In this document: positions 1-10,283 of the stretch, one piece after another | Layout of the letters: the number at the start of each line of letters is the position of its first letter | How positions within the stretch are numbered: position 1 is the stretch's first letter | DNA from: Candidatus Vogelbacteria bacterium | GTDB taxonomy: Bacteria; Patescibacteriota; Minisyncoccia; Phycocordibacterales; XYD1-FULL-46-19 | Length of the DNA stretch: 12,177 nt | Direction: 5' to 3' | Assembly: GCA_903825615.1 (NCBI GenBank) | Contig: CAIKBK010000025.1 | Location: 1-12,177, forward strand | Notes under the pieces: model-generated | What the model was told of the DNA's origin: nothing | What the model saw: only the letters and a program-made list of their open reading frames with translations | The model's database searches: none | Made by a program: the position numbers and the translations under genes

Positions 1-479
1 ACCCGAGCATCTCGTTGGCTAAGATGAAAATTGCTTTCGTGGGCAATGCGATTACGCACTTTGTGAGCCTGCCAGGCTTCATCAATAGATTGGAAATCGC
101 CCCGTTCAATATTCTTCATTTTTTCACCCATATTATCTCCCGGTACGGAAAAAGTGTTCACCACCATCTCTAAGACTTTATCAGCTTCAATAATCGCCAA
201 CTTCCAATCATTTGGATTGTCAGAACCAATAAGCTTTATTATCTTATCCCAAATCTCATTCTGGACTGGTTTATCTATCGCTAATTGCTCTTTTACCTCT
301 TCAGTCATAGAACTTGGTTTGCCATAAACCCGTTCACGCTGTTCGCGCAAGATAGTTTCGTAACGGTAAAGAAAATAGATTACTCCGACCAAAAACAGCG
401 AGGAGACAACTAGAAAAATCCACCAAATAAGATCGAGCCAGCTAAAAAATTCCACTCGCGCCGATGGATCAAAAATCAT
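1..479 (-). CDS. Membrane-anchored protein with HEPN-like RNxxxH motif, C-terminus cut by window edge
   Basis: I do not recognise a named family. The reading frame from ATG at 479 runs open for 159 codons to the window edge, so the C-terminus is missing. Residues about 15-38 form one strongly hydrophobic helix (LIWWIFLVVSSLFLVGVIYF). A charged stretch follows (RYETILREQRERVYGK), so the rest is probably cytoplasmic by the positive-inside rule. The soluble part is helical, with DWKLAIIEADKVLEMVV and later KVRNRIAHES. R142-N143-x3-H147 matches the Rx4-6H signature of HEPN domains, which are often RNases or toxins but also include non-catalytic binding modules. The gene lies 53 bp after gatA on the same strand and could be cotranscribed with it. 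No Shine-Dalgarno is visible. The start is the first ATG in a frame that stays open further upstream. A TTG 9 nt upstream is a less likely alternative. The function is unknown. Confidence 0.75.
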   Translation of the reverse strand, partial: MIFDPSARVEFFSWLDLIWWIFLVVSSLFLVGVIYFLYRYETILREQRERVYGKPSSMTEEVKEQLAIDKPVQNEIWDKIIKLIGSDNPNDWKLAIIEADKVLEMVVNTFSVPGDNMGEKMKNIERGDFQSIDEAWQAHKVRNRIAHESNFHLSQRDAR

Positions 480-532
480 CGTTCGCAAATTAACAAAAAA
501 ATTGTAAACTAAATAAATTAAATACTCTAGGT

Positions 533-1969
533 TTAAGCCTGACATGTCTCTATTATTGTACCAAGTGTGAACAAAATGTCATCTCGACGCCAGGGGGCAA
601 CTATCTGGATAGCCAGAGGCAAGCCCTTATCAGTCTTACCTGTTGGCACACTCATCCCAGGCACACCGGCCATGTTAATCGGCACTGTGAAAATATCCTC
701 AAGATACATCTGTAAAGGGTCACTTGTATTCTTGCCAATGGGATAAGCTGGCGACGGGGCCACTGGTGTGGCCACGACGTCCACCTCTTCAAAAGCTTTG
801 GCATAATCACGGCGAATTAATTCACGCACTTCTGTCGCTTTGTTGTAATAGGCATCATAATAACCAGCGGAGAGCACATAAGTACCAAGCATAATACGGC
901 GACGAACCTCACGTCCGAGCTTCTCCCCCCGAGTCTTCATATAATCCTCAAGTAAATCTTTGCCCTCTACGTGCGCACCATAGCGTACTCCGTCAAAACG
1001 GGCCATATTGGCCGACACTTCAGAGAAGACTGTAATATAATAACAGGCTAAAGAATAATGGAGGTTGGGCATCTCAATCGTCTTAATCTCACAGCCGGCT
1101 TGTTCTAATTTCTTAAGCGTCTCACGGAAATTATTAATTACCACTTCATCGATACCGCCCTGATTTAAGAAAGACTCCGGCACGCCTATTCGTAATTTCT
1201 TCGCCTCGCCGAAACTTTTAGTGGAGGCGGGTAATTCAGGTAAGTCATAACTTGTCGAGTCATAACGGTCCCAACCACGAATGGCGTTGTAGATAATTTC
1301 GGCATCTTCAATATTCTTGGCAATTGGTCCAATCTGGTCAAGTGACGAGGCCATAGCCATCACGCCATAACGACTAACCGAGCCATAGGTTGGCTTGAGA
1401 CCAACCGCTCCGCAAAAAGCCGACGGCTGACGAATTGAGCCACCAGTATCAGAGCCGAGCGCCGCGAGACATAAATTGCCACCCACGGCCGTGGCCGAAC
1501 CACCCGAAGAACCACCTGGCACACAAGTGGGATCGTGAGGGTTGCGAGTAATACCATAAGCGGAGTTCTCGGTTGAACCCCCCATCGCAAATTCATCCAT
1601 ATTTGTTCTGCCTAAAAAGACAACTCCTCTGGCTTTTAACTTCTCTATGACCGTGGCGTCATAAGTCGCCACATAATTCTCAAGCATCTTCGAAGCGGAT
1701 GAAGCGATTCGCCCCTTGATCAAGATATTATCTTTAATGGCCATCGGTATACCGGTTAAGATATCGGCTTGGCCGGCATGAATCCTCTTATCCGCCTCCC
1801 CCGCCTGCTCGAGCACATCAGCAAAAACTTCCAGATAAGCGTTGAGCTCGCCATTCTTCTTTTTTATTTCTTTCAGATAAGCCTCAGCTAACTCGACAGC
1901 GGTAAAATCACCGTGCACCAGCGCCTCATGCGCCTTCTTGATTGTTAAATTTTCTAAATCTATGGTCAT
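533..1969 (-). CDS. gatA: Aspartyl/glutamyl-tRNA(Asn/Gln) amidotransferase subunit A
   Basis: GatA hydrolyses glutamine and supplies ammonia so that GatCAB can convert Glu-tRNA(Gln) or Asp-tRNA(Asn) to the correct aminoacyl-tRNA in the cytoplasm. At 478 aa it is full length. The amidase-signature triad is intact: K79 (AIKDN), cis-Ser S154 (GGSSGGS) and nucleophile S178 (DTGGSIRQP). The numbering matches the triad known for Staphylococcus aureus GatA. The N-terminal helical region and the C-terminal part (VPINMAGVPGMSVPTG, then LAIQIVAP) are also normal. The ATG lies 4 nt after the gatC stop codon, so the two genes are almost certainly translated from one message (ligA-rluB-gatC-gatA). gatB is not in the window. 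It may lie beyond the left edge or elsewhere in the genome. The start at 1969 gives the usual N-terminus (DLENLTIKKAHEAL). Confidence 0.97.
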   Translation of the reverse strand: MTIDLENLTIKKAHEALVHGDFTAVELAEAYLKEIKKKNGELNAYLEVFADVLEQAGEADKRIHAGQADILTGIPMAIKDNILIKGRIASSASKMLENYVATYDATVIEKLKARGVVFLGRTNMDEFAMGGSTENSAYGITRNPHDPTCVPGGSSGGSATAVGGNLCLAALGSDTGGSIRQPSAFCGAVGLKPTYGSVSRYGVMAMASSLDQIGPIAKNIEDAEIIYNAIRGWDRYDSTSYDLPELPASTKSFGEAKKLRIGVPESFLNQGGIDEVVINNFRETLKKLEQAGCEIKTIEMPNLHYSLACYYITVFSEVSANMARFDGVRYGAHVEGKDLLEDYMKTRGEKLGREVRRRIMLGTYVLSAGYYDAYYNKATEVRELIRRDYAKAFEEVDVVATPVAPSPAYPIGKNTSDPLQMYLEDIFTVPINMAGVPGMSVPTGKTDKGLPLAIQIVAPWRRDDILFTLGTIIETCQA

Positions 1970-1973
1970 AAGT

Positions 1974-2282
1974 TTAAGTCAGAGAATCACCAAGAATTTT
2001 CTTAACCACATAATAATCACCTTTGCGTTTTGGTGCTTGGGACAGGATAATCTCGGTATTCACACCCGCGACAAAAGGTTCTTCGTCCTCACGCATGACA
2101 TTACGAAGATAATGATTGCCGGGCTTGCCCTCCGAAGCTTCAGCGTAGGAGGGGGCATTCTGAAGTTCACCAACATAGCCCAAAATAGACTCCATATCCT
2201 TTTGGAGCTTATCTTTCTCAGACTCGGACAAAGCAATTCTGGCCAAATTAGCCAGATTATCAATATCTTTTCGCTCTAACAT
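1974..2282 (-). CDS. gatC: Aspartyl/glutamyl-tRNA amidotransferase subunit C with in-frame palindromic insertion
   Basis: GatC is the small subunit that wraps around GatA and stabilises the GatA-GatB contact. This 102-aa protein has the typical N-terminal helix pair (DIDNLANLARIALSESEKDKL, then DMESILGYVGELQN) and the conserved VMREDE box (residues 62-67). The C-terminus (KKILG) is also typical. Residues 43-53 (APSYAEASEGK) replace the usual acidic loop between the second helix and the REDE box. They are encoded by a palindromic DNA element at 2124-2155 that also occurs in ligA. The gene starts 4 nt after the pseudouridine synthase stop and ends 4 nt before gatA. No Shine-Dalgarno is visible. 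The product call is firm. Calling the loop an insertion is an inference from the shared DNA. Confidence 0.94.
   Translation of the reverse strand: MLERKDIDNLANLARIALSESEKDKLQKDMESILGYVGELQNAPSYAEASEGKPGNHYLRNVMREDEEPFVAGVNTEIILSQAPKRKGDYYVVKKILGDSLT
2124..2155 (-). repeat. Palindromic element, copy 1 (in gatC)
   Basis: The 26-bp core at 2128-2153 begins CCCTCC and ends GGAGGG. Its 12-nt arms pair at 10 of 12 positions around a 2-nt centre. Read on the minus strand, 2155-2124 matches ligA 4681-4712 (plus strand) at 30 of 32 positions, so the copies lie in opposite orientation relative to their host genes. In gatC it is read in frame as residues 43-53. Such dispersed in-frame palindromes resemble Rickettsia palindromic elements in behaviour, not in sequence. 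Confidence 0.75.
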
Positions 2283-2286
2283 TTGT

Positions 2287-3003
2287 CTAGTATAGCATCG
2301 CTAAGAAATCTTTCAATTCTTGGCCGGTTAGCCCACGCCATTTACCAGGGGCGAGATTGCCTAATTTAATATTCATAACTCGCACCCGCTTCAAGTTCTT
2401 AACAGTCAAATGAGCACCATCGAGCATGCGGCGAATTTGATGTTTTTTGCCTTCGGTGAGAATTATCACCATAGAGTTAGGGCCAGTTATTTCTACTTTC
2501 TTTGCCTTCAATTTCTCGCGCAAAGAAAGCACTCCGCCCTCAAGAATCTTCTTATGCATGGGAGAAACTTTCTCCTTCACCTCTACCTCATACTCCTTCT
2601 CGTGTTCATATTTAGGGTTAAGCAAGCGGTCAGTCAAACGGCCGTCATTGGTCAGTAAAATCAAACCTTCGGATTCTTTGTCTAGGCGTCCGAGGGGAAA
2701 AATATCTTTTCTCTTCGTCAGATTCGCAATTTCGCGTTCACCCTCCCGTGGCGAATGCGTCACTATTCCGCGCGGTTTATAGAAAGCAAGATATTCATAA
2801 ATTTTCTCAGTTAATTTTTCTCCAGCTTTTTTAGTCAACTCTACTTTGTCACTCTTCTTCACTTGATAACCTAAGACTGCTAGCTCTCCATTGACCAACA
2901 CCAAGCCTTTAGCAATGAGTTCATCGGCTCCGCGTCTCGTCGCTATCCCTTGCAACTCTAAATAGCGGTTGATTCTGATTGGAAATTTTATTTCTTCTGA
3001 CAT
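2287..3003 (-). CDS. RsuA/RluB-family rRNA pseudouridine synthase
   Basis: It isomerises a specific uridine in rRNA to pseudouridine. The 238-aa protein has an N-terminal S4 RNA-binding domain at about residues 7-54 (INRYLELQGIATRRGADELI, with VNG about 38). A catalytic RsuA/RluB/RluE/RluF domain follows. The family signature GRLDKESEGLILLTNDG holds the catalytic aspartate D108. YLAFYKPRGIVTHS (about 71-84) and the late motif GKKHQIRRML are also present. The family resemblance is closest to RluB (23S rRNA) or RsuA (16S rRNA), and the target cannot be settled from sequence alone. The gene lies 4 nt after ligA and 4 nt before gatC, so it is the second gene of the ligA operon. The stop is TAG. 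The start is preceded by an A/T-rich stretch with no Shine-Dalgarno. Confidence 0.93.
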   Translation of the reverse strand: MSEEIKFPIRINRYLELQGIATRRGADELIAKGLVLVNGELAVLGYQVKKSDKVELTKKAGEKLTEKIYEYLAFYKPRGIVTHSPREGEREIANLTKRKDIFPLGRLDKESEGLILLTNDGRLTDRLLNPKYEHEKEYEVEVKEKVSPMHKKILEGGVLSLREKLKAKKVEITGPNSMVIILTEGKKHQIRRMLDGAHLTVKNLKRVRVMNIKLGNLAPGKWRGLTGQELKDFLAMLY

Positions 3004-3007
3004 AAAC

Positions 3008-5066
<2,059 letters not shown>

Positions 5067-10232: not shown

Positions 10233-10283
10233 CATTAAACCAAAAAAAGGCGAGGATAGGCCTCGCCTTTTTTTGGTTTAATG
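10233..10283 (-). terminator. Strong bidirectional intrinsic terminator
   Basis: The arms at 10233-10255 and 10261-10283 are perfect 23-bp reverse complements with a 5-nt loop. The GC-rich part GGCGAGG/CCTCGCC is next to A7 and T7 runs, so an RNA from either strand would form a stable stem followed by U7. The stem abuts the stop codon of the first pilin (10284-10286). It should end the pilT-pilC-pilin message. Confidence 0.93.

Follow-up and report, generated by a model that had tools for sequence, protein, structure and literature searches.

A REP-like 30-bp palindromic element within genes of Patescibacteria

Two essential genes of a Vogelbacteria genome, gatC and ligA, carry two copies of one 30-bp element without either reading frame being broken, and the codons that these copies supply are not ancestral protein sequence. 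Both belong to a sequence family with a paired stem kept up by compensatory changes, a tag on one side only and a phylum-wide spread, and this family is very probably a non-autonomous, REP-like mobile element of 30 bp, made of the tag C[T/C]TG and a 26-nt imperfect hairpin. Small palindromic repeats are known from other bacteria, and the element adds a new variety to them.

The two copies and the anatomy of the element

Vogelbacteria are members of the Parcubacteria/Patescibacteria. The window, by which we mean the whole stretch of 12,177 nucleotides that was analysed, comes from a genome of 578 kb in 117 contigs (G000), and the copies and their host genes lie in it as follows:

2124..2153, + strand: element copy 1, 30 bp in gatC, antisense to the gene; tag CTTG at 2124-2127, hairpin at 2128-2153; read as PSYAEASEGK, exactly codons 44-53 of GatC
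4683..4712, - strand: element copy 2, 30 bp in ligA, sense to the gene; tag CTTG at 4712-4709, hairpin at 4708-4683; read as LigA residues 106-114, LPSEALAKE, with parts of codons 105 and 115
1974..2282, - strand: gatC, 102 aa, host of copy 1 (NCBIfam TIGR00135, 52 bits, cut-off 47.1); PDB relatives of the product are 2df4_C and others
3008..5026, - strand: ligA, 672 aa, host of copy 2 (NCBIfam NF005932, 810 bits, cut-off 369)

As the first-pass annotation had claimed, 2124-2155 matches 4681-4712 read on the opposite strand, with 30 of 32 letters identical, and about 2.6e-8 pairs of such likeness are expected by chance, given the size and composition of the window and independent bases. The element proper takes up 30 bp of this match, the two additional matching G's being flank. 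The copies are placed in opposite orientation with respect to their own genes and are read in different frames, and the covariance model described below (R1) recovers both of them, at 2122-2155 (E 8.0e-9) and at 4681-4714 (E 2.8e-9). The same annotation had read the palindrome in frame as GatC residues 43-53: the frame stands, the boundaries do not, and the palindrome itself is genuine but imperfect, with its inner trinucleotides unpaired.

Both window copies fold into a 6-bp stem, a 3x3 mismatch, GC, a 4-nt loop and GC. The plan of the element is a one-sided tag followed by a 26-nt imperfect hairpin, with a rough hairpin consensus of CCC[G/T]CC-GNA-GC-YTYR-GC-GNA-GG[C/A]GGG; the 6-bp stem is G+C-rich, and the 3x3 internal mismatch, mostly GNA facing GNA, is followed by GC-NNNN-GC. 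In 25 oriented copies, kept out of 29 after four weak look-alikes had been dropped, the tag directly 5' of the hairpin holds 0.42-1.14 bits per position (-4 to -1), and on the 3' side there is no conserved tail, with 0.3 bits or less at every position. A larger set of 92 copies, which includes loci from IMG/VR contigs and was picked by consensus, T and G being required as the third and fourth letters of the tag, comprises 70 copies with CTTG, 15 with CCTG, 5 with TTTG and 2 with CGTG. In 21 copies, 93.1% of the stem cells are paired and the stem shows 13 double changes, against a mean of 4.2 in shuffles and at most 6 in slid controls; further pair types in the stem are not in excess in these copies (5 versus 5.2 in shuffles). 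Four of the six frames of the consensus are open, and read from head to tail they give LARRSFSEGG, LPAEALAKAG, PAFAKASAGK and PPSLKLRRAS.

Some copies are part of larger structures: inverted pairs with 10-18 nt between the copies, resembling REP dimers, occur in one genome (G036; L176, L177, L178), and in the same-genus genome G001 copies are centred within larger palindromes (L164, L165, L173, L174), for example CCAGACCTC...GAGGTCTGG. A separate feature of the window, at 10233-10283 between two pilin-like genes, looks like a two-way terminator: its 23-nt arms are perfect inverted repeats around a loop of 5 nt, and it has T/A tracts.

Empty sites and carrier genes

Sites without the element were sought in homologues of the carrier genes. 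Of 79 GatC homologues found, 56 could be classed by their loop peptide; the element is present in 12 and absent from 44, five of which have unclear loops and were set aside in counting state changes. Among empty loops, the type P-GLTEEHLPENYYLR, with 15 residues, is the most frequent. Four element-bearing proteins (P0004, P0019, P0028 and P0053) have 25-residue loops, exactly 10 more than this type, and a fifth (P0010) has a loop of 29 residues against 19 in relatives such as P0040, again exactly 10 more. The alignment of GatC from relatives, which had been named as a check, was run and shows empty loops, so that these codons are not ancestral sequence. Seven rows, the window's included, have 17-residue loops; the earlier claim that the GatC loop of the window departs from the ordinary one agrees with this, although the net difference from the commonest empty-site relatives is only +2 residues. 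A plain full-length insertion in the window GatC was rejected on account of this small net gain. The best reading, based on the aligned sequences, is that a 10-residue insertion was probably followed by the loss of 8 old loop residues, because this fits the states of P0009 (empty), P0004 (full) and P0001 (short), which fall into one clade with support 100/98 in a tree from which the loop was excluded. The tree requires at least 11 state changes, and a test rejects the grouping of the 12 element-bearing rows in a single clade (p 4e-5); the 'full' and 'short' states cluster no more than in shuffles. It was built from 85 columns, has unsettled bootstraps and many open forks, and recombination may have had a part in the history of GatC. 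In the AlphaFold model of GatC, residues 44-53 follow a helix (20-42) and are largely low-confidence linker, with pLDDT below 50 at residues 48-50 and 52-62, and the predicted structure fits a flexible linker at the place of the element.

A similar scenario is seen in other genes. The isoleucyl-tRNA synthetase of the genome from which the window comes contains a 10-residue insertion, PDSAKASTGK, that is lacking in 29 of 29 aligned relatives (an alignment that left out G005, with a weak match only); small other length differences occur in a few of them, such as L307 and L324. At the DNA level, comparison with G001 agrees with an insertion of 30 bp, bounded on the element strand by ..ATTC and GCC... 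In genome G186, a nucleotidyltransferase of another family has exactly 10 extra residues compared with nine of nine aligned family members (14 genomes searched). By sequence comparison, then, gains of exactly 10 codons over empty sites are established in three genes, gatC, ileS and the nucleotidyltransferase gene.

The situation of ligA is different in detail. Near relatives of the window's LigA, P0083 and P0084, have segments of 18 residues versus 26 in the window, a difference of 8 and not 10. The ligA of G001 has no copy at the window's site but has one about 125 codons beyond it. The lengths of their longest contigs suggest that P0009 and P0083 (8,142 bp), and likewise P0014 and P0084 (77,472 bp), share a contig that has neither the gatC nor the ligA copy. 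Other LigA proteins (P0085, P0086, P0099) bear long, unlike insertions in the same loop, for example RLPDGQGSLKDSPRKS; given this variety, repeats of several families may insert in this loop.

We also considered that the likeness of gatC and ligA might be ordinary coding sequence, alike by chance or by descent. Both genes are intact and in frame, as this would require; it is nevertheless refuted by the chance expectation given above, by the presence of the same 30-mer family in unrelated genes and between genes, and by the finding of the peptide in just the 12 of 56 classed GatC relatives.

Besides GatC and LigA, in-frame copies are carried by a wide range of genes, named here by their best NCBIfam family, with several of the open reading frames partial or below the family cut-off: the tRNA ligases for valine (two genomes), isoleucine and leucine, RadA, a XerD/XerC-type recombinase, a PcrA-like helicase, a second UvrD-like helicase, SMC, an RluA-family pseudouridine synthase, PNPase, RNase R, YchF, MurC, MurJ and DnaK, the last in its C-terminal tail. 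For one further locus (L204) NCBIfam gave no match. In LeuRS and MurJ the copy is upstream of the modelled domain, and a later start codon is therefore possible. In the window's own genome, the copy in leuS lies between two diverged versions of the gene start, KYEHSKIEKKW and KYNHSKIEHRW (L006:1420-1600).

Copies within the phylum and beyond

The search of the host genome and its relatives for further copies, also proposed in the first-pass annotation, was carried out, and the gatC/ligA pair turned out to be far from the sole match. With a pattern search at up to 3 mismatches, 8 places were found in the genome of the window and none with the reversed-pattern control; in 41 genomes, this one included, the pattern matched in 15 and the reversed control was positive once (G007). 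The covariance model R1, built from 21 of the 25 oriented copies, has 16 matches in the window's genome at E<=1, 14 of them at E<1e-3, and six of these 14 lie in identified genes (gatC, ligA, xerD-like, ileS, ychF and leuS). At E<=1 it has 26 matches in G001, and 24 of the 41 genomes have matches, that of the window counted. Some low-scoring matches are probably chance, such as L157, perhaps also L154; the L157 stretch resembles serine hydroxymethyltransferase. These many dispersed copies, together with the empty sites in homologues, support the idea of a mobile or amplifying palindrome, and tolerance of orientation and frame is borne out too, both orientations and four frames being in use among the copies.

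A restriction to the lineage of the window, as the first-pass annotation had implied, did not survive a wider survey: of 286 genomes surveyed in the phylum, 120, the window's own among them, have matches at E<=1e-4, in counts that are lower bounds with 24 candidates scored per genome, and the pattern is present in 35 IMG/VR stretches, the reversed pattern in none. In 7 unrelated genomes (about 25 Mb), R1 had no match at E<=0.01 among the 150 candidates scored per genome out of 396-3224 at first look.

The family does not seem to be confined to Patescibacteria. Twenty-six of the 35 IMG/VR loci have a GC content of at least 57%, and the ten of these records that were searched contain 1 to 16 R1 copies each, for example 16 on a contig of 33.8 kb and 12 on another of 45.6 kb. 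L224, L225, L241 and L250 come from IMG/VR contigs with a GC content of 66-70% and up to 16 copies in 33.8 kb, and the portal protein of the 45.6-kb contig (L225) is closest, among named records, to that of Sphingomonas flavalba, with 63% identity. Searches of reference records gave little: with the window copy as query there was no match in phage records and there were two weak Sinorhizobium matches in plasmid records (E 0.1-0.3), a GC-rich variant of the query found 6 plasmids at E 0.3-0.9 and one phage at E 0.4, and a 12.6-kb GC-rich contig had no match in plasmid records.

Could the palindrome have arisen by point mutation at many sites and been selected in place as a signal, be it a terminator, a DNA-uptake sequence or an RNA element? 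The stem kept with compensatory changes and the intergenic copies that adjoin tRNA genes are what such a signal might show, but the empty sites already disfavour it, since homologues differ by a gain of 10 codons and not by substitution; moreover, copies sit in frame in conserved genes in both orientations, and about 16 matches in 0.58 Mb are a density far below that of DNA-uptake sequences. We regard this explanation as very improbable, and a DNA-uptake sequence or terminator as the main explanation was rejected because of the 10-codon gains in homologues.

Junctions, movement and relation to known repeats

The ends of the copies are of two types, with and without a short flanking repeat. No flanking repeat was found at the ends of the insertions in ileS and in the G186 gene. 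Among 60 loci scanned for tRNAs, nine copies adjoin the 5' end of a tRNA. Seven of them (L194, L196, L197, L203, L207, L159 and L026) run into a tRNA-Gly or tRNA-Pro gene by its first 4-5 bases, and to the left of their tag 4-6 identical bases, GCGGG/CGGG, recur, a repeat that resembles a short target duplication; the other two (L176 and L178, both in G036) have a one-base overlap and no repeat. In the set of 92, an identity of 5-6 nt between the left flank and the 3' arm occurs in 8 copies, versus about 3.3 (at least 5 nt) in shuffled pairings, the left flank is weakly linked to the base that closes the arm (p 0.04), and it is GGG in 18. On one IMG/VR contig, copies L237 and L243 have a 7-nt direct repeat, AATATTG, on both sides.

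A Y1_Tnp (PF01797) match is present in 41 of 61 genomes, that of the window included, where the gene starts at a contig end with one side only in view. Among the matches listed, none of 74 distinct Y1 loci, viewed as a rule over about 1.5-2 kb on each side and less at contig ends, is directly flanked by R1 elements. Two Y1 loci have an R1 match at E<0.01: in L092, a stretch that had been extended to take in its R1 match, the distance to the gene is about 2.6 kb, and in L271 it is about 1 kb. Five further R1 matches near Y1 genes have E values of 0.56-1.1. A Y1 match is absent from 5 of 17 high-copy genomes and from all 32 IMG/VR records searched. A Y1 transposase (RAYT) as a linked partner was rejected, with no directly flanked gene among the 74 loci, which were drawn from the matches listed for the 61 genomes, the 17 high-copy genomes and the 32 IMG/VR records. 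Many Y1 genes of the phylum (many of L065-L108, in a survey of 51 loci, with 6 left out for lack of a tblastn match) are accompanied, near one end or both, by a near-perfect palindrome that differs from the element.

In the reading that we hold very probable, new copies enter DNA as 30 bp. As 30 is a multiple of three and four of the six consensus frames have no stop, they can persist within genes in either orientation, and they later erode. Movement would be transposition in which an enzyme of the HUH/Y1 type, supplied in trans, recognises the hairpin as single-stranded DNA, a step suggested by analogy with REPs and their RAYT transposases; no Y1 locus examined is directly flanked by R1. Spread without any transposase is possible but doubtful: hairpin-primed or template-switch DNA synthesis, or an RNA intermediate, would multiply the element, its arms annealing to short G-rich targets during replication or repair. 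The want of a closely linked Y1 gene, the five high-copy genomes without a detectable one, the GCGGG/CGGG repeated on the left in seven of the nine tRNA-abutting copies and the 18 GGG flanks would all agree with this, whereas the exact 10-codon gains in ileS and the G186 gene have no flanking repeat, nor have the two G036 copies next to tRNAs, and the tag is conserved on one side only, as expected of a guide recognised by an enzyme.

Transposase-free spread of such a kind has reportedly been proposed for the SDR repeats of Nostoc, which are said to be hairpins of 21-27 nt with compensatory changes, nested in other repeats, and for which no mobiliser is known. They are like the element in size class, in their compensated hairpin, in nesting and in having no known mobiliser, and differ in being cyanobacterial; their sequence is not known to be related.

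Like REPs in general, the element is an imperfect palindrome within 20-40 bp, dispersed in many copies and with an unpaired tetranucleotide at one end only. In the main text of PMC3733652, GTAG REPs are described as having a stem and an inner GC..GC hairpin with di- or trinucleotides that do not pair between the two, and their movement by RAYTs, Y1 transposases flanked by REPs, is given as a hypothesis. The element resembles these GTAG REPs (GTAG-3, E. coli type) in length (20-40 bp), in the one-sided unpaired tag of 4 nt, in dispersal and in occasional inverted pairs; in contrast, its tag is CYTG and not GTAG, GYAG, GYRG, GTRG, GTMG or GTGG, it has no directly flanked RAYT, and many of its copies are inside essential genes (as compared with the text of PMC3733652). 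The enzymes flanked by terminal inverted repeats in the same text are paralleled by the phylum's Y1 genes with their own, different palindromes nearby.

In behaviour, the CGTC REPs of that text, which include RPE-4 and RPE-6 of Rickettsia and are described there as having intragenic copies and no associated transposase (PMC3733652), resemble the element. They have in common with it a short hairpin with a tag, the lack of a dedicated transposase and copies that lie within genes for repair and tRNA synthetases; however, as described, they have a CGTC, TGTC or CCTC tag, a stem of 8-9 bp starting with A-T pairs and a CCA-type tail, whereas the element has a CYTG tag, a 6-bp G+C-rich stem (CCC[G/T]CC), an inner mismatch and no conserved tail. 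As in the Rickettsia palindromic elements, a palindrome lies in frame in protein genes whose homologues are without it (GatC, IleRS, nucleotidyltransferase), and RPE-1 likewise occurs within otherwise normal genes, but consists of 'longer palindromic insertions' (PMC3733652) against 30 bp here. The likeness to Rickettsia that the first-pass annotation had drawn therefore holds for the in-frame habit, with RPE-4/RPE-6 (PMC3733652) and not RPE-1 as the nearer match. Going by the descriptions in that text, the element is a REP in anatomy, of the GTAG-3 plan with another tag, and like RPE-4/RPE-6 in behaviour; we place it in neither the GTAG nor the CGTC superfamily because its tag and the absence of flanking transposases set it apart.

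A bolder reading, which we consider unlikely, is that of a third superfamily of tagged palindromes (CYTG), mobile as 30 bp without a linked transposase, common to Patescibacteria and phages of GC-rich bacteria, and able to take part of the 3' arm from a short G-rich target, which is left duplicated at some tRNA 5' ends. If true, the smallest mobile DNA would have a hitherto undescribed means of copying itself into genes in the form of ready-made 10-residue peptides.

Literature searches for the literal element and peptide strings returned no paper, and those for palindromes or REPs in Patescibacteria or Parcubacteria none on the topic, in a coverage outside of which most subscription papers fall; the words Patescibacteria, Parcubacteria and OD1 are absent from the main text of PMC3733652. 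The intragenic REPs in repair and tRNA-synthetase genes described there thus recur in a phylum that this text does not name. For annotation the element carries a warning: where these proteins contain peptides such as PSFAKASEGK or LARRSLGEGG, the origin can be an insertion of DNA and not conserved protein.

Patescibacteria have genomes among the smallest known, yet a selfish-looking 30-bp repeat has entered genes such as ileS, valS, radA, a xerD-like gene and ligA without a frameshift. The element is a directly countable source of new protein sequence, in stretches of 10 residues, and marks mobile activity throughout the phylum. The movement of REP-like elements that lack linked transposases can be studied on it as a test case.
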